Counted from the stretch's first letter, positions 15,161 to 63,499 are shown. The stretch is DNA of 64,000 nucleotides from Desulfurococcales archaeon (GCA_015520735.1 WAPN01000006.1:124001-188000), one strand, 5' to 3'. Numbers and translations are program-made. Notes: generated by a model from the sequence alone, not told the origin.

Positions 15161-15257
15161 GGGCCCGTAGCCTAGCCAGGATAGGGCGCCGGCCTCCTAA
15201 GCACATTTCGACCGCAGGGCCAGCCGGAGACCCGGGGTTCGAATCCCCGCGGGCCCG
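15161..15257 (+). tRNA. tRNA-Arg, anticodon CCU, with a 22-base intron
   Basis: Acceptor strands GGGCCCG/CGGGCCC enclose a standard cloverleaf. The anticodon stem CCGGC (15189-15193) pairs with GCCGG (15223-15227), and the anticodon CCT is at 15196-15198. A 22-base intron occupies 15200-15221, directly after position 37, the canonical bulge-helix-bulge site. The discriminator is G15257 and CCA is not encoded, unlike the other tRNAs here. The first 21 bases are identical to tRNA-Arg(UCG) at 20305. A TATA candidate CTATATAGA lies near 15122-15130. Confidence 0.93.
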
Positions 15258-15707: not shown

Positions 15708-16886
15708 CTAGGAGAACATTGTATGTATATCGTAGTATATCTGCCACGCCTTATTTCTAATCTTATTGCTAAAGCCTATGGCTTCATAGCCTATCGGTGT
15801 TTGATCTTGAAGTACTGTGCAACTAGCATAACTAGGTGTTTCCTCGCACTTTATAGTCGGTGAGAGGCCAAGAGATTCAGCTTCCTTCAAGCTCAGCCCT
15901 ACCCTGACCACGTGTGCTCCACCGATATTCTCATATATTGTTGGCACGATCCCTCTTGTCTCCTTCCTAGTCCCTGTAATGTTCCTCGCTATGATCCTAG
16001 CATAATGAGCGGCAATAAAGCCGAGGGGCCTATACACTTCCTTCCCAGTTATCAGGTCATGGCTTAATGCACAATCTCCAGTGGCATAGATGCCGTCAAT
16101 ACTCGTCACACCATTTCTTCCTATCTTTATCGCTCCACGCAGCATCTCAATACCTGATCCTTTAACCAGCTCGGTGTTCGGCCTTACACCCGTGGCAAAC
16201 ACAACTACGTCTACTGGCTCGATCCTCCCAGAGACTTTTATCTCCCTAGCAGTTTTACCACCTATGATCCCCTCAACCCTTGACCTCGTACGTATCTTAA
16301 TACCTTTGCTCACCAGGTATTTCTTCAGTTTAGTAGATAATGGATGATCTATCACTCCCGGCAAAATATCTTCCATAAGCTCATAGACAGTAACTCGTAC
16401 ACCAAGCCTATTGAGCGCCGTTGCCGCTGAGAGACCGACCAGCCCTGCGCCGATCACTGCCACTCTTGCTGTTCTAGGTATCTTGGATAGTTTCTTCAAG
16501 TCCTCGAGATCATAGAATGTCATAACGTTTTTCAGTTCAGTCCCTTTTAATGGTGGTATGAACGGCTTCCCGCCGGTGGCGATCACGATGCTATCATATG
16601 TGATCTCACCGTTATGTCTTAGTACAACTGTCTTGTTACTGATGTTGAGTCTTATGGCTACATCTTGTAGGATTTTCACTCCTTTATCTAGGAGCGTGTT
16701 ATATATTCCTATATAGGCGTAATCGATCGATAATTTCTCGCCGAGAATTTCTGCAAGTCGATGTTTCGAGTACGGTGGCCATTCCGCGGCAACTAGTACT
16801 ATATTGCTTGGCTTATAACCATATTTTACCAGATAATATGCAGTATATAATCCTCCTATTCCTCCCCCAATTATAACTGTCTTCAC
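15708..16886 (-). CDS. FAD-dependent NAD(P) oxidoreductase, likely AorC-like partner of the tungsten enzyme
   Basis: The 392-residue product is a two-dinucleotide-fold flavoprotein. The N-terminal FAD motif is VIIGGGIGGLYTAYYL, a second NAD(P) motif VIGAGLVGLSAATAL lies near 142-156, and FAD closure GVTSIDGIYATGDCA is near 257-271. The active-site region has PPYSKHRLAEIL and no redox cysteine, so it is closer to the NirB/rubredoxin-reductase type than to CoA-disulfide or sulfur reductases. As the last gene of the AOR operon, 7 bases after a ferredoxin gene, it probably passes electrons between the ferredoxin subunits and NAD(P). Confidence 0.82.
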   Translation of the reverse strand: MKTVIIGGGIGGLYTAYYLVKYGYKPSNIVLVAAEWPPYSKHRLAEILGEKLSIDYAYIGIYNTLLDKGVKILQDVAIRLNISNKTVVLRHNGEITYDSIVIATGGKPFIPPLKGTELKNVMTFYDLEDLKKLSKIPRTARVAVIGAGLVGLSAATALNRLGVRVTVYELMEDILPGVIDHPLSTKLKKYLVSKGIKIRTRSRVEGIIGGKTAREIKVSGRIEPVDVVVFATGVRPNTELVKGSGIEMLRGAIKIGRNGVTSIDGIYATGDCALSHDLITGKEVYRPLGFIAAHYARIIARNITGTRKETRGIVPTIYENIGGAHVVRVGLSLKEAESLGLSPTIKCEETPSYASCTVLQDQTPIGYEAIGFSNKIRNKAWQIYYDIHTMFS

Positions 16887-16893
16887 GGCACGC

Positions 16894-17370
16894 TCACCCC
16901 CTGCCTATTATTTCTAGGTACTCGTACACTGTTCTCGTAGCACCTCCTACGCGCCTCATCTTCACCAAGTGTGCTGGGAGATATCTTATGGCACCAGTAG
17001 GACATACTTTTACACATTCTGGGTCTCCGCCGCAGAGATCACATTTGACCAGTTCACCGCCATAAGATTCCCTGATCGCGCCGAAGGGGCAGACAGATAC
17101 ACATGCTTTGCATGTGGTGCATTTTGACTGATCTAGTATAACGCGTCCATTCTCAACATGCAGGGCATCGAATTCGCAGACGTTGACACACGGTGCTGGT
17201 TCACAATGTCTACACACAGCTATATCTACGACTACTCCTTTCTCCACCACTATTGTTATCATGGCCTGTCTTTCATCAATTACACCTCCTCTGGCAAGAG
17301 AGCAGGCAAACACGCATCTCATACACGCATTACATTTCTCCGGATCTATATCGAGCACGTGCTTGACCAC
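16894..17370 (-). CDS. Polyferredoxin subunit with four [4Fe-4S] motifs (AorA-like, copy 2)
   Basis: The 158-residue product contains 16 cysteines in four sets: CNACMRCVFAC, CRHCEPAPCVNVC, CTTCKACVSVC and CDLCGGDPECVKVC. This pattern fits four cubane clusters, as in HycB/AorA-type electron-transfer subunits. It is a paralogue of the gene at 17478-18053 and shares with it a perfect 46-base stretch. It lies between that gene and the FAD oxidoreductase, and probably forms part of the electron wire of the tungsten enzyme. Confidence 0.88.
   Translation of the reverse strand: MVKHVLDIDPEKCNACMRCVFACSLARGGVIDERQAMITIVVEKGVVVDIAVCRHCEPAPCVNVCEFDALHVENGRVILDQSKCTTCKACVSVCPFGAIRESYGGELVKCDLCGGDPECVKVCPTGAIRYLPAHLVKMRRVGGATRTVYEYLEIIGRG
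17003..17048. repeat. 46-base direct repeat, copy A (inside ferredoxin 2)
   Basis: This stretch is identical, base for base, to 17674-17719 in the paralogous ferredoxin gene. It encodes the fourth cluster motif. Neighbouring sequence in the two genes is much more diverged, which suggests local gene conversion. Confidence 0.9.
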
Positions 17371-17477
17371 TACCGATCATCTCTCTCCCTTATACAAACA
17401 AACCCCTATGCCACATCCTCCAACACTATCTAACCAGAGAGTTGATCAGAAGGGAAGAGAAAAAAATTGTGTTAAGG

Positions 17478-18053
17478 TTAGATATTGAGCTTCTTCCTCT
17501 CCTCCCAGATCCTATACAGAGTCTTGACAGCCTCTTCGGCCTCCTTTACCCTATTGCCAGCAGGTACTTCAACACCTTTCTCGAGAACCTCATAGACTAT
17601 TCCAACAGACTTGCCCTTCTTCAGCTTTCTTACAACCTCGTATTCTGGACCATAGAATATTGCTCCGTGCGGGCATACTTTTACACATTCTGGGTCTCCG
17701 CCGCAGAGATCACATTTGATAGGCTCGGCTTTCACAGTCAATGAGATGGCTCCGAACGGGCAGGCATATACACACTCGCGGCAACCTATACACTTGTTAT
17801 AATCTATAAGCCATGCACCCGTCTTCTCGTCAAAGTATATCGCGTTAGCGGGGCATGCACGTGCACATAGTGCATCGTTGCACTGCAGGCAGAATACTGG
17901 TGTTGATGCCTGTATCTCGGGCTTCGTAATAATCGTTATCCTTGACAGGTACGGGTTAACCACGCCGTAGTATTTGATACTGCATGCTAGTTCGCATAGA
18001 TGGCATCCAGTACATTTCTCATAATCTACGGCTAGGATATATCTATGGGCCAT
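17478..18053 (-). CDS. Polyferredoxin subunit with four [4Fe-4S] motifs (AorA-like, copy 1)
   Basis: The 191-residue product has 16 cysteines in four sets: CTGCHLCELAC, CLQCNDALCARAC, CIGCRECVYAC and CDLCGGDPECVKVC. A 40-residue charged C-terminal tail (VKEAEEAVKTLYRIWEERKK) is absent from its paralogue. ATG 18053 is chosen because GGTGAT lies just ahead and overlaps the stop of the AOR gene, coupling the two. The frame is open further upstream, but that part is only antisense-like overlap with AOR. It is probably the direct electron acceptor of the tungsten subunit. Confidence 0.9.
   Translation of the reverse strand: MAHRYILAVDYEKCTGCHLCELACSIKYYGVVNPYLSRITIITKPEIQASTPVFCLQCNDALCARACPANAIYFDEKTGAWLIDYNKCIGCRECVYACPFGAISLTVKAEPIKCDLCGGDPECVKVCPHGAIFYGPEYEVVRKLKKGKSVGIVYEVLEKGVEVPAGNRVKEAEEAVKTLYRIWEERKKLNI
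17674..17719. repeat. 46-base direct repeat, copy B (inside ferredoxin 1)
   Basis: This is the partner of 17003-17048, 671 bases away in the same orientation, with all 46 bases identical. Confidence 0.9.
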
Positions 18054-18058
18054 CACGA

Positions 18059-20002
18059 TCACCTCCCACGCGGATACTTGTCTAGAGGCCATAGAGGCGG
18101 GCCATCCCATTCTGGGAACTCCTTGTTCTCGATCTCGTCGGCAACCCACTCGATCCCCAGCTTTCTCAGCGTCTCTCTCTTCGGCACTGCGGTCTCTACG
18201 TCGCATCCTCTCCTCTTAAGATACTCGTCGACCATCTCCCAGTGCCTCTTTATCTCGGCCTGTATCTTCGGCGTATTGATTATTTCTGGTGGGAATGGCA
18301 CTGCGTAGTGTTTCTTCTTGATGCCCTGCCTGACGTTGAACGCCATCTCGATCAAATATATCCTGTCGGCAATCTCTACTAGCTTCTCCTCGGTAAACTC
18401 ATAGCCTGTGGCAGCTGTTAGTAGCTTGGCTAGCCCCTTGAATAATGGATACTTCCATACTAGTGGTATGGCCTGTGGCCAGGAGTTAATTGAGCCCTTA
18501 CACCTACCTATGCTGTCGGTGAGCGTACAGGCGCGTTCGCTGACGATCAATGCTCCTACCGGGTCTTTCCTATAGTCTGGAAGGCCGCCCTCGAGGAGCT
18601 TTAGGGGTAGCTCTGGATCCATGTTTCTGTCGTTCTCCCAGTATGCCCAGCTTCTCCCGCGTAGGTGATCCGCTCCTCTCGTTGAGGTTGCATGTGCTAG
18701 TGTGAAGATGCCGTTGAGGAAGTCTACATGGTACCATCCTCTGCTTAGTCCTTTGACATCATAACTGTATTTGAGCGCTTCTGGGCCTATGATCTTAGCG
18801 AAGTTCCTGTATCCCTCAGCGAGCTTGTTTCCGAAGCCCTCCCTGTATGCTATCATCTCTATGAGCTTGATCTGGGTCTCAGCATCACCCCATTTCAGCG
18901 GTATTCCGCCGGTGTCCGTGTCTGTTATGATTCCTTTCTCGTAGAGGAACTTGGCCATTGCAAGGGTGTCTCCAAGCGTGATCACATCCATGCCGTACTC
19001 GTCGGCCATCTGCTCCATCTTCAGTATCGCCTCAGTATCGGTGATCGCGTTGTTTGCTCCGAGCGCGTAGATTGATTCGAACTCGCTCGATACCCCGTAC
19101 TCGTTCCACCTAGGTAGCTTATAGACATCCTTGCATGATACTGGGCAGCTGAAACACTGTGTCCTGCCTACCTCGTACTTGGCGAGGTCAACGGGCCTTA
19201 TGCCCTCGGGCAGTTCTTCGGGGCCCAGATATTTCTCAAAGTATTTCCAGCCGGGATACCATGCTAGCAGTCCGTAATGGGTTCCGATGACACTATATAT
19301 TTTCTTTACGAACTCGTTTTTCTTGAACCATTCCTCGTCCTCCTTGGCGAGCTTGAAGAAGGCCTCGGGATCAGCGATCTCGACGCCCCTGGTTCCTCTC
19401 ACCGCTATGGCTTTGAGGTTCTTAGAGCCCCAGACAGCGCCTGTTCCACGGGCTCCGCTGTGGTACTTATCGATCATAGTGGTGGCGAACCTTACGAGGT
19501 GCTCGCCCGCCGGGCCTATGCCAGCCACAGCTATGTCGTCGCCATGGATGTCTCTCAGTGTGTCCACCATTTCACCGACCTTTAATCCCCACAGGTCGCC
19601 AGCGTCCCTGATCTCCACCGTGTCGTCCTCAATCCAAATATATTTCGGCTTGCTAGCCCTACCGGTAATGACTATCTGGTCGTAGCCGGCATGCTTTAAG
19701 ATTGCTGAGAAATCGCCGCCAGCATTGCCATCGCCGAGTATTCCTGATAAAGGTGATAGACTGCTTATCTCAGTCCTGCTTGTCATCGATAAGGCTGTAC
19801 CAGCCAGCACACCATTGGCAAGACACAGTACGTTCTCTGGGCTCAGCGGGTCTATTCCCGGCTTAACCATCTTGAATAGCCTGTAGGAGTTAAGGCCTCT
19901 CCCGCCAAGATACATCTTGGCTTCTGTCTCGCTGAGAGGCTGTACAACGACTTTTTCCCTGGTTAAGTCGACGTAGATTACTTTGCCTCCCCAACCATAC
20001 AA
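18059..20002 (-). CDS. aor: Tungsten-dependent aldehyde ferredoxin oxidoreductase, catalytic subunit
   Basis: The 647-residue product is a full-length AOR-family enzyme. The tungstopterin-binding N-domain has GGRGLNSY and GILGDGNAGGDFS. Cluster ligands are C283, C286 and C290 in CFSCPVSC, with a distal Cys in DSIGRC (C501), spaced as in Pyrococcus AOR. The pterin-contact motif RGADHLRG is at about 442-449. It oxidises aldehydes to acids. The TTG start follows GGTGATC. It is the first gene of a four-gene operon with two polyferredoxins and a FAD oxidoreductase, which points to an AorABC-type multi-subunit enzyme able to use NAD(P) as well as ferredoxin. Confidence 0.93.
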   Translation of the reverse strand: MYGWGGKVIYVDLTREKVVVQPLSETEAKMYLGGRGLNSYRLFKMVKPGIDPLSPENVLCLANGVLAGTALSMTSRTEISSLSPLSGILGDGNAGGDFSAILKHAGYDQIVITGRASKPKYIWIEDDTVEIRDAGDLWGLKVGEMVDTLRDIHGDDIAVAGIGPAGEHLVRFATTMIDKYHSGARGTGAVWGSKNLKAIAVRGTRGVEIADPEAFFKLAKEDEEWFKKNEFVKKIYSVIGTHYGLLAWYPGWKYFEKYLGPEELPEGIRPVDLAKYEVGRTQCFSCPVSCKDVYKLPRWNEYGVSSEFESIYALGANNAITDTEAILKMEQMADEYGMDVITLGDTLAMAKFLYEKGIITDTDTGGIPLKWGDAETQIKLIEMIAYREGFGNKLAEGYRNFAKIIGPEALKYSYDVKGLSRGWYHVDFLNGIFTLAHATSTRGADHLRGRSWAYWENDRNMDPELPLKLLEGGLPDYRKDPVGALIVSERACTLTDSIGRCKGSINSWPQAIPLVWKYPLFKGLAKLLTAATGYEFTEEKLVEIADRIYLIEMAFNVRQGIKKKHYAVPFPPEIINTPKIQAEIKRHWEMVDEYLKRRGCDVETAVPKRETLRKLGIEWVADEIENKEFPEWDGPPLWPLDKYPRGR

Positions 20003-22055: not shown

Positions 22056-22088
22056 ACCTCGTCAAATTTGTTAGGTTAGGTGAACCTA

Positions 22089-23651
22089 ATGCTCGGCTCT
22101 ACGGAGCCAGGTTTGCTGGCGCCTTTGTCTGCTTTTTTGCTGATTGGCGGCGCGTTTTCAGTAATATTGCTTAAGGCTTTAAAAGCTCCTAAAGTAGTGA
22201 CCAGGATTTATTCCTATGTTTTTGTTATTGTTTCTCTGGTCTTTTCGTTTTGGCTTTACATCGAAACAAGCGGGGGCGATATGTTCGTATATACTGTTGG
22301 AGGTTTTCCTCCTCCTATTGGGATTGTTTATCAGGTTGACGGTTTCTCCGCCCTTTTTGGCCTAGTCATTGCGATACTTTTTGCTGTCTTCTATCCTCTG
22401 ATCGGCGTATTGTCTGATGCTAATGAGTATTTTTACGCATTATTCTTGGGCCTGGAGGCTGGTATGCTTGGAGTGGTCTATACTGGTGACTTGTTTAATT
22501 CTTTCGTTATGCTTGAAGTACTCACAATATCGGCTCTCGGCCTGATCGCTATGTCTAAAACCAGGGATTCCTATGTAGCGGTTTATCGCTATGGTATTCT
22601 AATGTTTATCACTGGTATCCTATACTTCTTTGCGGCTGCTTTGATGTATTTCGCGACAGGAACTTTATCTATAGGATATATTGCGGCGTGGAACTATGCT
22701 CCTGGAATATTGGCTGGAAAATCGGCATATATTGGAGCAAGTATGGGTGCTGTTATAGGATTTATACTATTATTGCTAACATGGAGCCTGATAGCCGAGG
22801 AGGCTCTCGCACCACTGCACTTCTGGCTGCCTGACGCATATAGTTCCGCACCTCCAGTTATTGCTGGTTTGTTGGCTGGTGTAGGCGAGGCTGTAGGCTA
22901 TTATCTCATGCTTAGATTTTACTACACCATATACGCAGGCGTACCGTGGAGCATAGCTGTTCTCCTCAGGGTGCTTGGTATAATAACTATCATCATAGGT
23001 GGATTTGGTATAGTATATTCTGACAGACTACTCAAAATGATATCATATAGCGTTATTTTGGATACAGGATATATCGCATTAGCAGTATCTATCGGTCCTC
23101 AGGGAGTGCCTGTTGTGTTATCATATGTCATTGCACACGCTATTGTGAAGCCGCTCTTATTCATTTCTGCTGGATGGGCTAGACAAGTTTCAGGCACGGA
23201 TAAGCTTGACGGATTATCAGGAGTGTTCAGATCGAGTAGATTGATGCAAGTAGGATTCGTATCAGGTGCATTAGCAGTTATAGGTATTCCACCAACTATC
23301 CTGTTTGCTGCAAAACTCGAACTATATATCAACATGTTCAACAGCCTATTAGGAGACCCGCTGATGATTATCGCAATAATAGCTGCTTTTATAGGTTCAG
23401 GCCTAGCTGCTGCAGGATTTATCAAGGCAGTATCAGCGACTATCTTATCGCCGAATAAACGGTCATTCGGTGTTAAGCCCGGTATAAAGGCATATGTACT
23501 ATTGCTAACATTAGCGGTTTTCGCTTTCGGATTACTTTACCCAGTATTTCATAACCAAGTGATAGTTCCTGCATCAAATATTCTGGTCGAGCACAGAGAC
23601 GCTTACATCAATGAAATATTAAAGCTCATACCACAATTAGCGGGTGGATGA
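22089..23651 (+). CDS. mbhH: MbhH/MrpD-like ion-translocating antiporter subunit
   Basis: The 520-residue protein has about 14 hydrophobic helices and the NuoL/M/N fold. The key Glu in the fifth helix region (LFNSFVMLEVLTISALGL) and the lysine-bearing broken helix region LIAEEALAPLHFWLPDAYSSAPP are present. It forms the proton or sodium channel arm of the MBH/MBS complex. ATG 22089 is chosen over GTG 22080 because GGTGA (22079-22083) lies 5 bases ahead. It is the first gene of the operon and overlaps the downstream reading frame slightly. Confidence 0.9.
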   Translation: MLGSTEPGLLAPLSAFLLIGGAFSVILLKALKAPKVVTRIYSYVFVIVSLVFSFWLYIETSGGDMFVYTVGGFPPPIGIVYQVDGFSALFGLVIAILFAVFYPLIGVLSDANEYFYALFLGLEAGMLGVVYTGDLFNSFVMLEVLTISALGLIAMSKTRDSYVAVYRYGILMFITGILYFFAAALMYFATGTLSIGYIAAWNYAPGILAGKSAYIGASMGAVIGFILLLLTWSLIAEEALAPLHFWLPDAYSSAPPVIAGLLAGVGEAVGYYLMLRFYYTIYAGVPWSIAVLLRVLGIITIIIGGFGIVYSDRLLKMISYSVILDTGYIALAVSIGPQGVPVVLSYVIAHAIVKPLLFISAGWARQVSGTDKLDGLSGVFRSSRLMQVGFVSGALAVIGIPPTILFAAKLELYINMFNSLLGDPLMIIAIIAAFIGSGLAAAGFIKAVSATILSPNKRSFGVKPGIKAYVLLLTLAVFAFGLLYPVFHNQVIVPASNILVEHRDAYINEILKLIPQLAGG

Positions 23652-23652
23652 T

Positions 23653-24672
23653 ATGGGTATCCTAGAGAAGATATTCAAGTGGCCCTTCAGTAGGAGTTTG
23701 TGGATGATACACTATTGCTCTGCATGCGGAGCCGTGGAATTCCCACCCCTAGTAATGTCTCCAGTAGATTGGGAGAGATATGGATACATGCCTGCTCCTA
23801 GCCCGAGACAGAGTGACATCTATATTGGAATGGGGTACTTGACCAAGAAGACCGTGAAGCTTTTCCTTAATATGTATAGACAGATGCCAGAACCCAAATT
23901 CGTAGCAGCTGGATGTAATTGTACGGCTACAGGAGGATTATACTGGGATAGCTATGCAACATACAAGAGACTGGATGACTTTGTTGAGGTAGAGGGATGG
24001 GTTCCTGGATGCATGCCTATGCCTGACGACTACACTGCATTCATAGAATATTTCAGAAGAAACCTAAAGGAAAGAGAGATCGGAAAATACGTCTCTAGAA
24101 TAAAGCCAGAAGCGTTTAAGAAGATTATGGAGTGGGAAAAACTAGAGCGTGAATGGCTTAAGGAATACGAGGAAAAAATGAAGAAAGAATCTAATATACT
24201 TATTCAATACGATTTCACCGAAACATATCCCGAATGCTTTGAAAAAGACGAACCCAAGGGAATATGTAAGACAAGTATACGCCCAGTTAGAGTTAGGAAG
24301 GTGCTTAAAGAATTAAAAGATAAGGGGTATGTATTATTTATCAATATCAATACTATTGATTGGCCCAAGAAAGGAGTAATTGAGATATTCTATATTGTTG
24401 AGAATCCTTCCAGCGGCGAACAGATCTGGGTAAAAACATTTGTTCCAAGAGCTAATCCTATGATTGATAGTATACATGACATATATCCAATAGCCTATTA
24501 CATCGAACGAGAAGTCTATGAGATGATGGGCGTAGTGTTTAGAGGACACCCTAATCTAAAGAAATGGATCCTTGAAGGAAACTGGGAGGGCCCGCCGCCG
24601 CTTAGGAAAGATGTGGATACTCCTAGTTTCGTCGTAAAGACGATGTATGGGGGCTACAAGTATGGGAGATAA
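23653..24672 (+). CDS. Fused MbhJ-MbhK (NuoB-NuoC-like) subunit
   Basis: The 339-residue protein joins two subunits that are separate in Pyrococcus. Residues 1-150 are NuoB/MbhJ-like with candidate ligands of the proximal [4Fe-4S] cluster at C22, C25, C88 or C90, and C120 (HYCSACG, AAGCNC, WVPGCMPMPDD). A charged linker (about 150-185) follows. Residues 185-339 are NuoC/MbhK-like, ending with the family stretch YEMMGVVFRGHPNLKKW. GGTGG precedes ATG 23653. The protein docks the large subunit and carries electrons towards the catalytic site. Confidence 0.88.
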   Translation: MGILEKIFKWPFSRSLWMIHYCSACGAVEFPPLVMSPVDWERYGYMPAPSPRQSDIYIGMGYLTKKTVKLFLNMYRQMPEPKFVAAGCNCTATGGLYWDSYATYKRLDDFVEVEGWVPGCMPMPDDYTAFIEYFRRNLKEREIGKYVSRIKPEAFKKIMEWEKLEREWLKEYEEKMKKESNILIQYDFTETYPECFEKDEPKGICKTSIRPVRVRKVLKELKDKGYVLFININTIDWPKKGVIEIFYIVENPSSGEQIWVKTFVPRANPMIDSIHDIYPIAYYIEREVYEMMGVVFRGHPNLKKWILEGNWEGPPPLRKDVDTPSFVVKTMYGGYKYGR

Positions 24673-25768
24673 CGGGAAACTAGTACAAATTTATTTTGGG
24701 CCACAACATCCGGGAGCTCCCGGCAATATAGGTTACAAGCTATGGCTCGACGGAGAAAGAGTTGTAAGAGCAGAAGTTATACCGGGTTTTCTACATCGTG
24801 GATTCGAGAAAATGATGGAAAACAGAACATGGGAAATGAATATCACGCTTAGCTATAGATTTTGTGTAGAAGATCCTGATCCCCTGGAAATAGCATATGC
24901 CTTAGCGGTTGAGGACTTATTCGGTGCAGAAATACCTGAAAATGCCAAGTATATTAGAATGATACAGGCAGAGTTCTCTAGGATAGCCTCCCATATGTTC
25001 TGGGCTCATTTTATAGGTGGAAGCACAGGTCTCAGAACACCAGCATACTGGGCAGTGTCTGCCCGCGAGGAAATTTTAAAGTGGTTTGGATGGTATGCTG
25101 GGCATAGAATATACCATAATATAAGTGTTCCTGGAGGGGTAAGATATACCCTTCCAGAGGGATTCATCGAAAGAACGCTTAGAGTCCTAGACTTCGTGGA
25201 GAAAACAGTTAGGGATGTAGAGAAAGCATTAATACGGAACAGTGTCTTCAAGGCTAGAACCGTTGGTATGGGCAAACTTTCCACCAAGGAAGCATTAGAG
25301 CTGGGTGTAACCGGACCAGTTCTAAGAGCTACTGGTATGCCGTATGACATAAGGAAGGCTAGGCCTTATCTAAATTATGATAAGGTCGACTTTGAAGTGC
25401 CGACAGGCTCTGCTGGGGATTCTTATGATAGATGCCGTGTAAGGTTTCAGGAGATATACCAGAGCATAAAGATCATTAAAGAAAGTTTATCGAAACTCGA
25501 TCCTAGTGAGCCTTTCAGAATAAAGTTACCAATAGTTGCGCCCGCAGGTGAAGGAATCGCCAGAGTTGAGACCGCTAGGGGAGAATATGTGATTCATATC
25601 GTCAGTACTCGTGGTAGACAACCATATCGTGTAAGGCTTAGGAGCGCATCAATGCCGCTACTCACAACTGTTGTTAACTATATCATTGAAAACGAGGAGA
25701 TCACTATAGCTGATTTTCCAGTATTACTTGCCTCACTAGATCCATGTGCACCCGACTTAGATAGGTGA
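24662..25768 (+). CDS. MbhL/MbsL-like (NuoD-like) large catalytic subunit without complete [NiFe] motifs
   Basis: The 368-residue protein has the group 4 hydrogenase large-subunit fold (FGPQHPGAPG, GFLHRGFEK, RIASHMFW, PVLRATGMPYDIRK). The N-terminal RxCxxC is RFCVED (C68, D71) and the C-terminal DPCxxC is DPCAPD (C362, D365). Each motif keeps its first Cys and has Asp for the second. Loss of two of the four nickel ligands is known for the MBX/MBS family, which reduces sulfane sulfur, and argues against H2 production. ATG 24662 overlaps the end of the JK gene by 11 bases. Confidence 0.9.
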   Translation: MGDNGKLVQIYFGPQHPGAPGNIGYKLWLDGERVVRAEVIPGFLHRGFEKMMENRTWEMNITLSYRFCVEDPDPLEIAYALAVEDLFGAEIPENAKYIRMIQAEFSRIASHMFWAHFIGGSTGLRTPAYWAVSAREEILKWFGWYAGHRIYHNISVPGGVRYTLPEGFIERTLRVLDFVEKTVRDVEKALIRNSVFKARTVGMGKLSTKEALELGVTGPVLRATGMPYDIRKARPYLNYDKVDFEVPTGSAGDSYDRCRVRFQEIYQSIKIIKESLSKLDPSEPFRIKLPIVAPAGEGIARVETARGEYVIHIVSTRGRQPYRVRLRSASMPLLTTVVNYIIENEEITIADFPVLLASLDPCAPDLDR

Positions 25769-25774
25769 TCTATC

Positions 25775-26272
25775 ATGGTGCTTTCAACTATAAAAAACGC
25801 CATAAAATACATGGTTAAAAAACCATACACAAGGCAAGTGCCCCGGAAGGATAAAAGATACAAGAGCGAGAATCTAAGGGGGGCACATATCTTATACATG
25901 GATAAGTGTACTGGTTGTTCAATGTGTCAGCGGGTATGCCCGGCGGCATGTATTGATATGGTGGTCGTCGAGGGTGATTGGCCCCGCAATCATAGGAAAA
26001 GGTTTCCAAGAATAGATCATAGCAAGTGTACTTTCTGCGCACTATGTGTCGAATACTGTCCATTCAATGCCTTATCAATGACCGATGCCACGGGCTTTGA
26101 ATTATTTACTACGGATAAATCGAAGACGCTTAAGATGCCACAGGAACTAAAACCGATCGGGAAGGAAACGCTGACCAAGCAGAAGCTATTGAGCAGTTAT
26201 GCACCTCCTTATGCTCTAAAGAAGTTCGAGAAGGCATTGGAAAAATCCAGGAAGGTGAGCTCAAGTGGTTAG
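25775..26272 (+). CDS. MbhN/NuoI-like 2[4Fe-4S] ferredoxin subunit
   Basis: The 165-residue protein has two cluster motifs, CTGCSMCQRVCPAACID and CTFCALCVEYCPFNAL, and an amphipathic N-terminus typical of the NuoI-like subunit on the membrane surface. It takes electrons from soluble ferredoxin and passes them to the JK cluster. GGTGATC lies 6 bases ahead of ATG 25775. It overlaps the next gene by 8 bases. Confidence 0.92.
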   Translation: MVLSTIKNAIKYMVKKPYTRQVPRKDKRYKSENLRGAHILYMDKCTGCSMCQRVCPAACIDMVVVEGDWPRNHRKRFPRIDHSKCTFCALCVEYCPFNALSMTDATGFELFTTDKSKTLKMPQELKPIGKETLTKQKLLSSYAPPYALKKFEKALEKSRKVSSSG

Positions 26273-26546
26273 CTATAGTGTTCTCGAAGGAGTTCTACCG
26301 ATACTCTTTGGCTTGTTTACGTTAGCCATGATAATTTATTCTTTAAGGGTATTTACATCAAAGTCTGTATCGGATATGGTTTTAGCTGTTGATGCTCTAA
26401 CAATTGATTTAATCATAATATTTGTTCTCATAGGATTGTATTATAGGTCTCCATACCTACTCATAGGCGTGATACCCCTTGCCGCATGGATTTTAATACT
26501 GGACATAGTTGTGTCGAGGTATCTTTCAAAGGGTGGTGGAAAATGA
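26265..26546 (+). CDS. MbhB/MrpF-like membrane subunit
   Basis: The 93-residue protein has three transmembrane helices, with the MrpF feature of an Asp in helix 2 (MVLAVDALTIDLIIIFVLI) and a conserved end helix (AAWILILDIVVSRYL). It belongs to the sodium/proton antiporter module. The GTG start is preceded by GGTGAGC. It overlaps the next start by ATGA. Confidence 0.85.
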   Translation: MVSYSVLEGVLPILFGLFTLAMIIYSLRVFTSKSVSDMVLAVDALTIDLIIIFVLIGLYYRSPYLLIGVIPLAAWILILDIVVSRYLSKGGGK

Positions 26547-26920
26547 TTGACTGGATATTATTTTATCTAGGCTTAGCGCTCACACTATTAGGTGGCGCGA
26601 TGGATTTAATAGCCTCCATAGGATTCTTCAGGTTCAAGGATTTCTATATGAGGCTACATGCAGCAACTATAGGCGCTATTGGTGGAGGATTTTATCCTTT
26701 GATAGGCTTAGCATTAATAGCTCTCTCACTGAACTTGGACGTCTATATCAAAGCTTACATTTCGGGCGTATGCGTTATAGCTGCAGCCTTGATAGCTTTA
26801 ACTGCCCCGGCAGGCTCGCATATACTTGCGAGAGCAACCCATAGAAGCGGGGAGGTCGTGCCGAAGGTAATTGTTGATAGAATTAAAGAAGACATGGAGA
26901 AAGGTGGTAATGAGCCATGA
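26543..26920 (+). CDS. MbhC/MrpG-like membrane subunit
   Basis: The 125-residue protein has three helices and the MrpG signature FFRFKDFYMRLHAATIGAIG. It is part of the antiporter module. ATG 26543 overlaps the stop of the previous gene and is preceded by GGTGGTGG. A C-terminal charged tail (VDRIKEDMEKGG) is longer than usual. Confidence 0.88.
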   Translation: MIDWILFYLGLALTLLGGAMDLIASIGFFRFKDFYMRLHAATIGAIGGGFYPLIGLALIALSLNLDVYIKAYISGVCVIAAALIALTAPAGSHILARATHRSGEVVPKVIVDRIKEDMEKGGNEP

Positions 26921-27165
26921 TCACACTTATAATAGGAGCTATAGCCGTAACACTAGCACTTGTTTCAGCAATACTTATTGTTAATGAAAAAGATGTTTTA
27001 AAGGCAATAGTCCTAGCTGGTGTAGAGTCAGTATTCTTTGCTATTGCTCTAGCGATATTTCTAGCACCAGATCTACTGATAGCCTATATTGCAATAGGCC
27101 TTGGTTTGAACAGTTTACTGTTTATATATGCGCTGAAGAGGGGTGAAAGATATGAGGAAGAGTAA
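26917..27165 (+). CDS. MbhD-like (DUF4040) membrane subunit
   Basis: The 82-residue protein has three helices and matches the DUF4040 core: NEKDVLKAIVLAGVESVFFA, LLIAYIAIGLGLNSLLFIYAL. In MBH it corresponds to the C-terminal part of MrpA. It overlaps its neighbours at both ends (ATGA at the start, 14 bases at the end). Confidence 0.85.
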   Translation: MITLIIGAIAVTLALVSAILIVNEKDVLKAIVLAGVESVFFAIALAIFLAPDLLIAYIAIGLGLNSLLFIYALKRGERYEEE

Positions 27166-27964
27166 GACCTTCCCGGTGATCTGCCTAATAACTACGATCT
27201 CGATTGTTCTCATCTTAGCAGTTCTTCTAAACATATCTGGGCTTACAACATACGGAGTCAATGAATTAACAGGGCTAGCCAAACTGTTCGTTCTAAACAT
27301 TCCTGACCCTACTAAGCCTTGGTCTTCACATGCATTTGAAATAGTTACAGCTATTTTATGGGATCAAAGAGGGCTCGACACGTATTTTGAGACAAGCGTG
27401 TTATTTCTTGCAATAGTTGCATCGGTTGCCTTACTGTCTTACTATGGAAGGAGACACGTACTTGAAGGTACTGGCGACGGATATACTACTATGATTGTAA
27501 AAATCGTAACGAAACTTGTTGTACCGATAATCGCTGTTGTAAGCGCCTCTATAGCTATTCATGGTCATCTGACTCCGGGAGGAGGTTTTCAGGGTGGTAG
27601 TGTTTTCGTTGTCGCACCAGTTCTGATACTTCTGGCCTATGGGAGCAGATTTTTATCGTCTAGAGGCTTCAATGAGCTAAGACTATTAGCCATTAGAGCT
27701 TTAAGCGTGACCTTGATATTTGTTGTGGGCTTAGTACCTGTTCTATATTTCCTAATGCATGGTACAGCGTATTTGTTCCAGAACACATATAAGCCGGACT
27801 CAGCTTTTACGTATCCATACCTTATACCTACACCCATAGGAGAGATACTGACTGCAGGCTCAATAATGATATATAACATACTTGAATTCTTTGCTGTAGC
27901 CGCAGGTTTTACCCTTGCTATACTATTATTGACCAGAGAATTCGAGAGAGGTGAGAAAAAGTGA
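27152..27964 (+). CDS. Fused MbhE-MbhF (MrpA C-terminal end plus MrpB) membrane subunit
   Basis: Residues 1-110 are MbhE-like, with VTAILWDQRGLDTYFETSVL, the MrpA-end signature. Residues 115-270 are MrpB/MbhF-like, with the helix motif IHGHLTPGGGFQGGSVFV. In Pyrococcus MBH the two are separate genes, so this is a natural fusion. ATG 27152 is chosen because GGGGTGA lies 5 bases ahead. The next gene starts within the stop region. Confidence 0.87.
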   Translation: MRKSKTFPVICLITTISIVLILAVLLNISGLTTYGVNELTGLAKLFVLNIPDPTKPWSSHAFEIVTAILWDQRGLDTYFETSVLFLAIVASVALLSYYGRRHVLEGTGDGYTTMIVKIVTKLVVPIIAVVSASIAIHGHLTPGGGFQGGSVFVVAPVLILLAYGSRFLSSRGFNELRLLAIRALSVTLIFVVGLVPVLYFLMHGTAYLFQNTYKPDSAFTYPYLIPTPIGEILTAGSIMIYNILEFFAVAAGFTLAILLLTREFERGEKK

Positions 27965-28371
27965 TATCACTAGATGGCCTTCTTTGGTACTATATAGTTG
28001 TCGCGATATTGTTCACGATTACTTGTGCGCTATACGGCATAGCTACGAGACCACATATTATTAAGAAGCTTGTCTTACTAACCATTGTCTCCGATGCTGT
28101 CTACGTGTTGCTCGTTCTTATGGGTTACAGGATTGGGGCAACAAATCCACCCGTTGTTCCTGGCGGAGTGCTCGAAAACCCGGTTTTTCCATCCCATAAA
28201 ACAATCGTGGAGTTTATGCATAAAGTAGTTGATCCTGTTCCTCAAGTATTGATCGTCACAGCTATAGTTATAGGACTTGCACAATTCGTTTTCCTCGTAA
28301 CTATCTCGATGCACTTGGCGAAATCCACAGGCTCATTCGATATTAGGAGGATCGAAGGTGAAAAAGAATGA
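27961..28371 (+). CDS. MbhG/MrpC (NuoK-like) membrane subunit
   Basis: The 136-residue protein has three helices as in NuoK/MrpC (WYYIVVAILFTITCALYG, KKLVLLTIVSDAVYVLLVLMG and VPQVLIVTAIVIGLAQFVF). The TAIVIG helix carries the conserved MrpC pattern PQxLxLTAIVI. The GTG start overlaps the previous stop and the end overlaps the next start. Confidence 0.87.
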   Translation: MISLDGLLWYYIVVAILFTITCALYGIATRPHIIKKLVLLTIVSDAVYVLLVLMGYRIGATNPPVVPGGVLENPVFPSHKTIVEFMHKVVDPVPQVLIVTAIVIGLAQFVFLVTISMHLAKSTGSFDIRRIEGEKE

Positions 28372-28871
28372 GAAAAGCTGTATCAATCATAATATATGGC
28401 TTGCTAATGGCTATTGTATATCTTATATATACTGGAGTGTTTTCTCTAGTAGAGATTATACTATCAATAGCAATAGGATTAATCATTGCATATATATTTG
28501 CGGGAGACATTATAACTGATCTTTCGAAGCTCTCGCTATCAAGGATCTACCATGCCATAACATATCTAATTAAGTACTTCACGGTCATAGAGGCCAGGGC
28601 TCACTGGAGCGTTATAAAAATTATCCTGTCAAGAAATACAAATCCCAAACCAGCAATTGTGAGAGTTCCATTCAAAGCCAATAATCCTTACACCATAGTA
28701 TTCATCGCCAATAGCATCACTAATACTCCGGGAACAGTTGTCATAGATATGGATGAGAACAAAAAAGCATACTATGTTCACTGGCTTACACCAACAAGCC
28801 TAACCGATGATGACGCCTATAGGAATATTTCACTAGAATTCGAGAAGCACCTTACAAAGGTTTTCGAGTAG
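28368..28871 (+). CDS. MbhA/MrpE-like membrane subunit
   Basis: The 167-residue protein has two or three N-terminal helices followed by a cytoplasmic domain with the MrpE signature TIVFIANSITNTPGTVVIDM and HWLTP. It is part of the antiporter module. In Pyrococcus this subunit is encoded first; here it is near the end of the operon, so the order is rearranged. Confidence 0.87.
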   Translation: MRKAVSIIIYGLLMAIVYLIYTGVFSLVEIILSIAIGLIIAYIFAGDIITDLSKLSLSRIYHAITYLIKYFTVIEARAHWSVIKIILSRNTNPKPAIVRVPFKANNPYTIVFIANSITNTPGTVVIDMDENKKAYYVHWLTPTSLTDDDAYRNISLEFEKHLTKVFE

Positions 28872-28880
28872 GTGGTATAA

Positions 28881-29225
28881 ATGATGAGTATGTTTGAGTT
28901 CCTAAGCACTATAATAGGTTTAACAGTATTGGTCGGCTTCATTATTTATCTTATTTTCTATGAGTTCTTCCAGAGATTCATAGCAAGCAAAATACCCGCT
29001 ATAAGAGATGAGGTCTCAGAGAAACCTGTTATGAGTGGCTTCATCGTCGATGAAATAGATAGCCCGCCAGTTACGAAAATAGTTAAGGAGATCTTATATA
29101 GGGCTTGGAGGCAGGGAGCAAAATTTGTGGAAAGGAGCGTGTCCTCCTATCTAAGCGACTGGTATTTTGTCTCAATAGTCTTGTTGCTCGTATTGGTATT
29201 GTTATCATTCATTATGGGGTGGTAA
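28881..29225 (+). CDS. MbhI-like two-helix membrane subunit
   Basis: The 114-residue protein has one N-terminal helix (STIIGLTVLVGFIIYLIFY), a polar middle part and one C-terminal helix (WYFVSIVLLLVLVLLSFIM). By size, topology and place it corresponds to MbhI, the subunit that links the antiporter and hydrogenase modules. Similarity is topological more than by motif. GGTGGT lies ahead of the ATG. Confidence 0.6.
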   Translation: MMSMFEFLSTIIGLTVLVGFIIYLIFYEFFQRFIASKIPAIRDEVSEKPVMSGFIVDEIDSPPVTKIVKEILYRAWRQGAKFVERSVSSYLSDWYFVSIVLLLVLVLLSFIMGW

Positions 29226-29227
29226 GA

Positions 29228-30208
29228 GTGATTTGGCAGGCGCTTATATTGTTCTTAGAAGCCCTGCTTTACCCCGGGCTATTATTCATGATATTTTTTA
29301 TTATACTTACACAGTGGCTTGCAAGAAAACTTGTTGCAAGAATACAGTTTAGGCGCGGACCCATATATGCTGGTCCAGCAGGTTTTCTACAGCCGATGGC
29401 CGATCTATTGAAGCTCGTGATGAAAAAGGACTTAATAAATAAGTATAGTATGAAGATCAGTCCTTTAATAGCGGTGGCTATTGGGATAGGTGCATTGATA
29501 TCAATAACTGTGGCGACTCCAATAGCTTTTCAGCCTATATATGGAGACTACGACTTTATAATAATACTTTATTTATTATTGATGGTTCCATTTACGCTAG
29601 CGTACTTAGCTGTTGCCCATCCAAACCCCTACACAGCTATTGGTGCTGGTAGATTTGTAGCGCAACTGCTTTCGAGCGAGCCTGCATTTGCACTATCCCT
29701 TCTCGTACCAGTAATAATTGCATCAAAAGAGTTCAATGCCTCCTATTCTCTATACATGACAAGCATATATTCTGCTTACTTATGGGGCATAAGCTTCTCG
29801 AAAACACTAGCTATGATACTTGCAGCTATTGCGGGATTTCTCGGATTACTTGCTGTACTAATGGTAAAGCCATTCGATACGCCCGAAGCAGAATCAGAGC
29901 TTTATTGGGGCATATTTACTGAGCTCGGTGGTCCTAGGCTTGCACTAGGCTTTTTCCTAAAATTTGCGGAGAAGATAGTTTATCCATTGATCTACTCGCT
30001 TTTATTCTTGGGTGGAATATGGCCAGCGTCTCCTGACGACTGGTTGGCAGGTACAGTTGCTGTGTTATTTAAGACAATCATAGTATTCATTGCGATAACA
30101 GTAATTGATGCTTCTCTACCTAGATATAGGCCTGATCAAGCTGTCAAGTTTATGTGGAAATACCTATACCCTATTTCCATTATTGCAATTTTATTATCAA
30201 TTATTTAA
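29228..30208 (+). CDS. MbhM/NuoH-like membrane subunit
   Basis: The 326-residue protein has about eight helices and NuoH signatures: ARIQFRRGPIYAGPAGFLQP, MADLLKLVMKKDL, and the acidic loop KPFDTPEAESELYWGIFTE. It connects the peripheral electron-transfer arm to the membrane arm. GTG 29228 follows the previous stop after 2 bases; the frame extends upstream only through overlap with MbhI. It is the last gene of the operon. Confidence 0.9.
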   Translation: MIWQALILFLEALLYPGLLFMIFFIILTQWLARKLVARIQFRRGPIYAGPAGFLQPMADLLKLVMKKDLINKYSMKISPLIAVAIGIGALISITVATPIAFQPIYGDYDFIIILYLLLMVPFTLAYLAVAHPNPYTAIGAGRFVAQLLSSEPAFALSLLVPVIIASKEFNASYSLYMTSIYSAYLWGISFSKTLAMILAAIAGFLGLLAVLMVKPFDTPEAESELYWGIFTELGGPRLALGFFLKFAEKIVYPLIYSLLFLGGIWPASPDDWLAGTVAVLFKTIIVFIAITVIDASLPRYRPDQAVKFMWKYLYPISIIAILLSII

Positions 30209-34146: not shown

Positions 34147-35769
34147 TTGACGAATAGAGAATCCATCGGATTTACCGAGGCTTTTAGTATAGGAGTAGGT
34201 GGTATGATTGGCGGAGGAATATTCGCTGTCCTCGGTCTCAGCCTTCAACTAGCAGGCACGGCTGCACCAATAGCCTTTCTTATAGCTGGCCTTATAGCAT
34301 TAGCGACGGCTTACTCATATTCAAAACTATCTATTAGATACCCCAGCGAGGGAGGGACAATAGAGTATCTTGTGAGGGCATATGGGAACGGTGTCTTCTC
34401 GGGCGGCCTCAACATAATGTTGCTTGCAAGCTACATCGTTATGATATCGCTTTATAGCTATGCCTTTGGAAGCTATGGGGCAAGCATGCTGGGAGGCTCC
34501 ATATTCGCTAAACACTTACTGGCAACACTGGCTATAGTCTTATTCACAATAATCAATGCCTTGGGGGCAGTGATAACCGGGAGGACCGAGGACGCCCTTG
34601 TCCTGTTCAAGGTAGCGATACTCGTTCTAGTTGTCGGTGCTGGTTTCTCCTTCGTAGACTGGGGACGGATGTCTTCTTCAAACTGGCCGGGCCCTGTTAA
34701 CATCATAGCTGGCGGGATGATCATATTCCTAGCCTATGAAGGCTTCGAATTAATAGCCAACACGGCAAAGGATGTCAGGGACATAAAGGTTTTACCTAAA
34801 GCATTCATATCAGCCGTAGTATTCGTCACAACAATTTACGTCTTAGTAGCAATAGTCACGGCCGGTACACTGACCCCGCAACAAGTCGCTGTCGCCAGAG
34901 ACTATGCACTAGCCATGGCGGCTAAACCCGCCCTTGGCGAGCTGGGCTTTCTACTCATAGTTGCAGCAGCTCTTGCATCAACTAGTAGTGCCATTAATGC
35001 TACGCTTTACGGCACAGCAAGAGCTAGCTATATTGTCGCTAAATATGGTCAGCTACCAAAGATCGTAGAGAAAAAAGTGTGGAGGAGCGCTTACGAGGGA
35101 CTAATACTGATCAGTATCCTGAGCGTCATAATGGTTAACACTACAAGTCTAGAAGCAATAAGCGCAGCTGGTAGTGGAGGCTTCCTAACGATCTTCATGA
35201 TGGTTAACTTCGCAGCCTACAAGCTCCGTAGAGAAACAGGTGCAAACAAATACATAACGTTGCTTGGAGGCTTCGCAACACTATTTGCTTTAGGCCTACT
35301 CGTCCTTAGGATGATCCAGCTTGCCCCGACGAAATTATCCGTGTTCATAACGCTCCTCGTTCTCTCGTTCCTCATAGAATATGCTATACGCCGCACAACA
35401 GGCAGAGAAATATCGAAATACATAGACCCCGACCTCGAGAAGCGCGAGAAACACATAAGGAGCTGGCACGAGTGGATACACAGGGTTATCAAGGAGATCC
35501 TCGAGGAATTCAGAGATGCGGAGATATACATTGTTGGAAGCATTGCTAGGGGAGAAATACATAGGTCCCACGATGTCGACGTAATGATTGTTAGTAGTAA
35601 GGTCCCAGCAGATAAGAATGAGAGGTTAAAGAAGAAGATAGAGCTCAAGACTATTAAACCTTATCTAAGAGAGTATCCTGTCGACATACATTTGGTGAGG
35701 CCAGAAGAAAAAGATGAGTGGCTCAAGAAACAATACAAGAAACTAGAATCAAAGAATCATAGTGAGTAG
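34147..35769 (+). CDS. APC-family amino acid permease fused to a nucleotidyltransferase domain
   Basis: The 540-residue protein begins with a 12-helix permease (about 1-415) carrying the APC signatures GVGGMIGGGIFAVLGLS and YEGFELIANTAKDVRD. It ends with a soluble domain (about 430-535). That domain has the full Pol-beta nucleotidyltransferase site: GSIARGE at 464-470, HDVDVMIV with D476 and D478, and the third Asp in VDIHLV (D513). No frameshift or stop lies between the domains. The cytosolic domain may modify or regulate the transporter. The TTG start follows AAGGTG. The preceding 281 bases (33866-34146) hold only a promoter-like AT-rich region. Confidence 0.88.
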   Translation: MTNRESIGFTEAFSIGVGGMIGGGIFAVLGLSLQLAGTAAPIAFLIAGLIALATAYSYSKLSIRYPSEGGTIEYLVRAYGNGVFSGGLNIMLLASYIVMISLYSYAFGSYGASMLGGSIFAKHLLATLAIVLFTIINALGAVITGRTEDALVLFKVAILVLVVGAGFSFVDWGRMSSSNWPGPVNIIAGGMIIFLAYEGFELIANTAKDVRDIKVLPKAFISAVVFVTTIYVLVAIVTAGTLTPQQVAVARDYALAMAAKPALGELGFLLIVAAALASTSSAINATLYGTARASYIVAKYGQLPKIVEKKVWRSAYEGLILISILSVIMVNTTSLEAISAAGSGGFLTIFMMVNFAAYKLRRETGANKYITLLGGFATLFALGLLVLRMIQLAPTKLSVFITLLVLSFLIEYAIRRTTGREISKYIDPDLEKREKHIRSWHEWIHRVIKEILEEFRDAEIYIVGSIARGEIHRSHDVDVMIVSSKVPADKNERLKKKIELKTIKPYLREYPVDIHLVRPEEKDEWLKKQYKKLESKNHSE

Positions 35770-43458: not shown

Positions 43459-43564
43459 TGGAGCCGCCGGCGGGATTTGAACCCGCGACCACCGGCTATC
43501 CTGACGGGCCTGATACGCCGAACTGCTTACAAGGCCGGCGCTCTACCGGCTGAGCTACGGCGGC
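43459..43564 (-). tRNA. tRNA-Thr, anticodon UGU, with a 30-base intron
   Basis: Read on the minus strand, acceptor GCCGCCG pairs with CGGCGGC and the T arm is GCGGG-TTCAAAT-CCCGC. The anticodon stem CCGGC/GCCGG is split by a 30-base intron (plus-strand 43498-43527) after position 37. The anticodon TGT is at 43529-43531. CCA is encoded at 43459-43461. A TATA-like CTTTAAAGG lies about 33 bases upstream. Confidence 0.93.
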
Positions 43565-63381: not shown

Positions 63382-63499
63382 GCCGGGGTGCCCGAGCGGC
63401 CTAAGGGGGTGGGCTCGAGACCTTTTCCGGCTTTCCCGGGCTGAGAGACCCACTGTCCCCTCGGGGGGCGCGCGGGTTCGAATCCCGCCCCCGGCGCCA
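63382..63499 (+). tRNA. tRNA-Ser, anticodon CGA, with a 28-base intron
   Basis: Acceptor GCCGGGG pairs with CCCCGGC (63489-63495) and the T arm is GCGGG-TTCGAAT-CCCGC. The anticodon stem GTGGG/CCCAC encloses CTCGAG-intron-A, with anticodon CGA at 63416-63418. The 28-base intron is at 63420-63447, directly after position 37. A long variable arm (CCCC/GGGG) is typical of tRNA-Ser. Discriminator G63496 and CCA 63497-63499 are encoded. Confidence 0.93.

Follow-up and report, generated by a model that had tools for sequence, protein, structure and literature searches.

The locus described here would encode a NAD-linked multi-subunit tungsten aldehyde oxidoreductase of the WorL-S-N design, extended by a second electron wire, with the ferredoxin Fd1 as core wire and the ferredoxin Fd2 as adapter. 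We favoured this reading with somewhat better than even confidence. The locus lies on the minus strand at positions 15708-20002 of the window, a stretch of 64,000 nucleotides from a Desulfurococcales archaeon, and comprises in transcription order an AOR-family catalytic protein (AOR), Fd1, Fd2 and a Pyr_redox_2 flavoprotein (FAD protein). What can be read from the sequence itself are the four proteins with their cofactor ligands, the fact that they stay associated across genomes, and the concerted evolution of Fd1 and Fd2. The initial annotation had proposed a multi-subunit, NAD-type AOR in an archaeon, and this proposal was supported by the synteny, the strict co-occurrence of the AOR and FAD genes, the FAD and NAD motifs and the loss of the dimer-iron ligands of PfAOR.

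Results

Gene layout

All four genes expected at the locus were present. The catalytic protein has complete AFOR_N (7.7e-71) and AFOR_C (1.2e-81) Pfam domains, both ferredoxins contain 16 Cys, and the flavoprotein matches Pyr_redox_2 (6.9e-51). The true start of Fd1 is at 18053, 5 nt past the AOR stop; the start of the listed ORF at 18206 gives a spurious overlap with AOR. The host genome (1.53 Mb, 40 contigs, 99.8% complete) contains five AOR-family genes, and its AOR paralogues include L002 of the PfAOR group and L001 of the FOR type.

Features of the locus, with positions counted from the first letter of the window.
Feature	Position	Strand	Description
WorL/AOR, tungsten-bis-pyranopterin aldehyde oxidoreductase catalytic subunit	18059..20002	-	647 aa, TTG start
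Fd1, WorS-like	17478..18053	-	191 aa, ATG start, 16 Cys in four [4Fe-4S] motifs, conserved C-terminal tail EAEEAVKTLYRIWEERKKLNI
Fd1-Fd2 intergenic region, 107 nt	17371..17477	-	T-run at about 17460-17466; TATA-like TTTGTATAAGG at 17388-17398; possible second promoter
Fd2, second WorS-like polyferredoxin	16894..17370	-	158 aa, 16 Cys, without the conserved long C-terminal tail
WorN-like FAD/NAD(P)-binding oxidoreductase	15708..16886	-	392 aa, without redox-active Cys
Putative gene-conversion tract, Fd1 copy	17674..17719	-	46 nt identical to Fd2; fourth Cys motif CDLCGGDPECVKV
Putative gene-conversion tract, Fd2 copy	17003..17048	-	pairs with the Fd1 tract 17674..17719

The genes are tightly spaced within two pairs, with 5 nt between AOR and Fd1 and 7 nt between Fd2 and the FAD gene, and 107 nt separate the pairs. 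Because this gap holds a run of seven T downstream of the Fd1 stop and a TATA-like box, TTTGTATAAGG, about 25 nt upstream of the Fd2 start, AOR-Fd1 and Fd2-FAD are possibly two transcription units. The earlier description as one tight operon thus fits the spacing within each pair and is doubtful for the locus as a whole. Relatives have a gap of approx. 70-130 nt at the equivalent position, and in the seven closest genomes, which were aligned, the T-run and TTTGTATAAGG or a close variant of it are kept. The box occurs in one exact copy in the window, and chance alone would give 1.6 matches if up to one mismatch is allowed; it is therefore a weak promoter argument by itself, and its conservation is the better one.

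Distribution and synteny

This AOR (E<=1e-120) was found in 14 of the 229 genomes of the class, all 14 of which also carried the FAD gene, and in these genomes the two genes were neighbours wherever the extent of the contig permits. Two families of Desulfurococcales share the order AOR-Fd1-Fd2-FAD, which was seen in 12 genomes, counting that of the window (G000, G078, G076, G075, G077, G074, G082, G155, G087, G161, G164 and G162; some interrupted by a contig end). Judged by this identical order in 12 genomes and two families, the four-gene arrangement is far beyond chance. The contigs of G156 and G080, incomplete at the locus, have the same order as far as their sequence extends. The named relatives were Desulfurococcales MAGs and one Staphylothermus MAG.

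Shorter versions of the locus were also found. G089 has AOR-Fd1-FAD, with no Fd2 and the FAD gene directly after the single ferredoxin, so that Fd2 would not be essential to such a complex. A Thermococci MAG (L079) carries AOR-Fd1 on a contig for which mis-binning is possible; Fd2 and a FAD gene are both missing from this locus, and the rest of the MAG has no close homologue of the FAD protein either (32% for the best match). No case of Fd2 without the FAD gene was found among the genomes examined. In Thermoproteota, FAD genes of this lineage always adjoin WorL-S genes, either of the present type or of a second type in which the FAD gene is convergent, and no FAD gene of the lineage was found without a WOR.

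The catalytic subunit

The AOR matches PDB entry 1aor with E=2e-95. It is 38.7% identical to PfAOR and 34.2% identical to AorB, which share 49.9% with each other, and over its full length it is at most 39% identical to Thermoproteota AORs outside its own clade. In maximum-likelihood trees the AOR formed a separate deep clade (100/100), and AorB clustered with AmWOR1, PfAOR, the solved AOR 9g7j and the host paralogue L002 (100/100). A joint clade of the AOR with AorB and AmWOR1, and thereby AorB orthology, was rejected in a constrained-tree test (p-AU 0.0014). The kinship with AorABC that had been suggested for the AOR was not supported, as the protein falls outside the AorB clade.

In every member of the AOR clade examined, the four cluster Cys were present together with Thr243, Glu313, Tyr427 and His448 (PfAOR numbering), the residues marking aldehyde-oxidising members. 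Glu332 and His383, the ligands of the bridging iron in the PfAOR homodimer, are replaced in this clade by K/R and I/A, respectively. Loss of these residues in heteromeric AORs was noted by Arndt et al. (PMC6365974).

A four-cluster ferredoxin adjoins most of the WORs of other classes that are closest to this AOR, so that the WorLS form with two components seems to be common in Thermoproteota. A FAD gene of the present kind was found beside none of the 20 nearest WORs of other classes. The generalisation that most archaeal AORs are encoded alone was therefore only partly right, since most of the closest Thermoproteota relatives have a neighbouring four-cluster ferredoxin.

The flavoprotein

Sequence matches of the flavoprotein included NoxA-3 (3.7e-46) and AorC (8c0z_E, 4.4e-30). 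Its AF2 model (pLDDT 92) was searched with Foldseek, which gave the NAD-dependent persulfide reductase 6pfz as the best PDB match (TM 0.90) and AorC (8c0z_E) with TM 0.84. Both GxGxxG motifs, for FAD and for NAD, are kept, and a Glu of the NAD type follows the second beta strand; from these motifs NAD+ would be the electron acceptor. The redox Cys of NADH oxidases and CoA-disulfide reductases (Nox/CoADR) is replaced by an invariant His, and a function as persulfide reductase was disfavoured because this Cys is missing. The host genome has no close paralogue of the flavoprotein (30% at best).

In the flavoprotein tree the protein was sister (100/98) to the flavoproteins of the second archaeal WorL-S type and stood apart from stand-alone Nox-like proteins, with which AorC was placed; a joint clade of AorC and the present flavoprotein gave p-AU values of 0.051 and 0.14. 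At these p-AU values, orthology with AorC, the flavin subunit of AorABC, was not demonstrated.

The two ferredoxins

All 16 Cys are invariant in Fd1 and in Fd2, each aligned over 13 relatives. The window's Fd1 and Fd2 are 42% identical (approx. 35-46% across genomes with complete copies of the two), and no other protein of the host genome matches Fd2 as well as Fd1 does. The nearest solved relatives of both ferredoxins are WOR small subunits. For Fd1 the best PDB match was AorA (8c0z_C, 1.7e-32), followed by the WorS of AmWOR1 (9mqx_E) and Pf WorS (6x6u_B), and for Fd2 the best were 9mqx_E (8.5e-27) and 8c0z_C (8.8e-26). The AF2 model of Fd2 was poor (pLDDT 56). Fd1 ends in a conserved helix-like tail, EAEEAVKTLYRIWEERKKLNI, which is absent from Fd2 and from the single ferredoxin of G089. 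In AorA the C-terminal 20 residues form a helix that drives filament formation (PMC10413684), and by analogy the Fd1 tail could pack Fd1 units together.

Fd1 and Fd2 formed two clades in the trees, and the question whether these are sisters was left at p-AU 0.07 to 0.28. In the first tree Fd2 grouped with the ferredoxins of the second WOR type (97/91), a support that was gone with wider sampling (long branches). A simple tandem duplication of Fd1 into Fd2 was not shown, as Fd1+Fd2 gave p-AU 0.25-0.28 and Fd2+FdX was likewise unsettled. What stands of the "duplicated polyferredoxin" is the pair of related 16-Cys ferredoxins; duplication is no more than a candidate origin of Fd2.

Over the fourth Cys motif, Fd1 and Fd2 of the window are identical for 46 nt. 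The identical run is 70 nt in G155 and 67 nt in G156, each with its own sequence, and 9-22 nt in other genomes. In the window's genome (G000), G155 and G156, 14-15 of the 15 codons of the motif are identical; elsewhere approx. 40-60% of the codons are identical for amino acids common to Fd1 and Fd2. From these patterns the fourth motifs look like they were homogenised by at least three independent gene conversions, at one spot and in at least three lineages. The host Fd2 reads ECVK at a site that is ACVR in its congeners, which suggests that Fd1 was the donor in the putative host conversion. The cause may have been either selection for a common docking face or just a short stretch prone to mispairing.

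At family distance the identity was 83-84% for AOR, 70-74% for Fd1, 53-58% for Fd2 and 46-50% for the FAD protein. The divergence of Fd2 tracks that of the FAD protein (r = 0.985), and both change faster than AOR and Fd1. As all inter-gene distance correlations were high (0.94-0.99), this value is weak evidence for a specific Fd2-FAD pair. Judged by the relative rates, AOR-Fd1 would be a conserved core and Fd2-FAD a periphery that changes faster.

Discussion

Proposed electron path

We infer a physical complex, its substrate, the order and direction of electron flow and NAD+ as the acceptor, as follows. Aldehydes, probably from amino-acid fermentation, would be oxidised to acids at the W-bis-pyranopterin centre of the AOR. 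The [4Fe-4S] cluster of the AOR would hand the electrons on to Fd1, the core wire with its four clusters; the helix-like C-terminal tail could hold Fd1 units together. From Fd1 they would move through Fd2, the adapter wire, to the FAD of the last subunit, which would reduce NAD+. Some observations count against this four-subunit reading: the 107-nt gap with its promoter-like features allows separate expression of Fd2-FAD, the AOR-Fd1 locus of the Thermococci MAG does without Fd2 and FAD, and G089 does without Fd2.

A more far-reaching version, which we put forward only tentatively, would be that this NAD-linked enzyme of archaea evolved independently and has a heterotypic polyferredoxin wire. 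Gene conversion would then keep a cluster-binding face identical between the two wire proteins because both must dock to a shared partner.

Alternative readings

The main rival to the four-subunit enzyme divides the locus into two neighbouring modules. AOR-Fd1 would be a Class II WorLS with soluble ferredoxin as its electron acceptor, and this ferredoxin would be regenerated by Fd2-FAD, a ferredoxin:NAD(P) oxidoreductase in its own right; the two would be co-located and co-inherited without forming a single complex. The conserved gap of approx. 100 nt with T-run and TATA-like box speaks for such a division, as do the lone AOR-Fd1 pair of the Thermococci MAG and the closest WORs of other classes, which are WorLS pairs without FAD. 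We nevertheless considered it unlikely: no FAD gene of the lineage was found apart from a WOR, in G089 the FAD gene directly follows Fd1 with no Fd2 between them, and gene conversion links Fd1 with Fd2. The homogenised fourth motifs in G000, G155 and G156 would also fit a single mixed wire in which Fd1 and Fd2 are interchangeable or alternate and both dock AOR and FAD (cf. HycB3/HycB4, HDCR), and HDCR does have two polyferredoxins in a single filament (PMC10413684). The low identity between Fd1 and Fd2, the conserved tail that only Fd1 has and the divergence of Fd2 in step with FAD make this arrangement quite improbable.

The best sequence and fold matches of the FAD protein, NADH oxidases and the NAD-dependent persulfide reductase, would agree with a persulfide/CoA-disulfide reductase or NADH oxidase unconnected to the electron flow of the AOR. 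Such a role is very hard to reconcile with the absence of the redox-active Cys, with the clade shared with WOR-linked FAD proteins apart from stand-alone Nox-like proteins, and with the strict linkage to the present AOR.

Significance

If the four-subunit enzyme is real, multi-subunit tungsten aldehyde oxidoreductases linked to NAD arose outside the catalytic lineage of AorABC. They would be active in archaeal hyperthermophiles, whose characterised aldehyde enzymes use ferredoxin, and one tungsten enzyme would have two distinct wire proteins. The host group consists of heat-loving archaea of deep-sea vents, and the multi-subunit NAD-linked design has so far been demonstrated only in bacteria. 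A natural comparison would be provided by AOR-Fd1 (Thermococci MAG), AOR-Fd1-FAD (G089, probably Staphylothermus hellenicus, which is cultured) and AOR-Fd1-Fd2-FAD (the remaining relatives).

Comparison with known systems

Multi-subunit NAD-linked WORs have been described before as Class III WORs, WorL-S-N (Putumbaka et al. 2026, PMC13328260), with AaAOR as the sole characterised member (PMC13328260). By the published subunit content the present locus is a Class III WOR, having both AFOR domains, an adjacent WorS, twice, and an adjacent FAD/NAD-binding Pyr_redox_2 WorN; judged by the tree of its catalytic subunit it is not an AorABC orthologue. The definition of Class III has no second S-type subunit, whereas two are present here. 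In the papers covered, neither a WOR with two distinct four-cluster subunits nor gene conversion between such subunits was mentioned. No WorABC genes of a Class IV bifurcating WOR adjoin the locus, as judged from the ORF list and a Pfam scan of neighbouring ORFs. Phenylglyoxylate dehydrogenase PadHI was rejected, as the NCBIfam cut-offs were missed (PadI 91 of 700 bits, PadH 140 of 475 bits).

The AorABC of Aromatoleum aromaticum (PDB 8c0z; PMC6365974, PMC10413684) likewise combines a WorL, a four-cluster ferredoxin and a FAD/NAD flavoprotein, with the polyferredoxin feeding the cap flavoprotein (PMC10413684), and AorABC and the present AOR have both lost the PfAOR dimer-iron ligands. In contrast, AorB is only 34% identical and belongs to another clade, and the present locus has two ferredoxins, the order L-S1-S2-N and archaeal hyperthermophile hosts. 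The AOR of Pyrococcus furiosus (1aor) shares the catalytic fold and residues but is a Fe-bridged homodimer working with ferredoxin; unlike this Class I type, the present AOR lacks the Glu332/His383 ligands and has an adjacent WorS, Fd1. The ASOR/WOR5 of P. furiosus (6x6u) also shares fold and residues, and its WorS resembles Fd1. The second archaeal L-S plus FAD type (G045, G021, G228, G338, G284, G318 and G358) has a FAD protein sister to the present one and a single 16-Cys ferredoxin between WorL and the FAD gene. It differs in that the FAD gene is convergent, in opposite orientation to WorL-WorS (seven genomes), and in that the two WorL proteins placed, those of G045 and G021, fall in a separate clade.

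Gene conversion between the two polyferredoxin genes

Between the genes of the two 16-Cys polyferredoxins, Fd1 and Fd2, gene-conversion tracts were found in the window (17674-17719 and 17003-17048) and at two loci of compared genomes, L042 and L044. In every case the tract was located at the fourth cysteine motif. The conversions look like independent events in at least three lineages.

Surroundings of the AOR genes

An MBX/MBS/Mbh-like membrane complex adjoins the AOR genes (22080-30208, plus strand). Elsewhere in the window, a single ORF (34147-35769, plus strand) encodes an amino-acid permease with a C-terminal nucleotidyltransferase domain, which is either an unusual fusion or a frame artefact.

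Subunits of the membrane complex and tRNA genes in the window
Feature	Position	Strand	Remark
MrpD-, MrpB-, MrpE- and MrpG-like antiporter subunits	within 22080-30208	+	
Fused NuoB-NuoC-type protein	23644-24672	+	
NuoD-like subunit	within 22080-30208	+	NiFe Cys motifs incomplete
Ferredoxin-like and NuoH-like subunits	within 22080-30208	+	
tRNA gene	15161-15257	+	Apparent intron; Rfam match, missed by ARAGORN
tRNA	43462-43564	-	Case similar to 15161-15257
tRNA	63382-63496	+	Case similar to 15161-15257

Related AOR loci in other genomes

Two contigs binned as Thermococci (L079, L082) carry the AOR of the window's locus, otherwise a Desulfurococcales protein, with an identity of 69-72%; either lateral transfer or mis-binning would account for this. 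A second archaeal type, WorL-WorS with a tail-to-tail (convergent) FAD gene, was present in seven genomes (loci L048, L050, L051 and L154-L157), whose hosts belong partly to the order of the window's archaeon and partly to other groups of its phylum. The position of Thr243 (PfAOR numbering) is occupied by Ser in WorL of two genomes with this type, G045 and G021.
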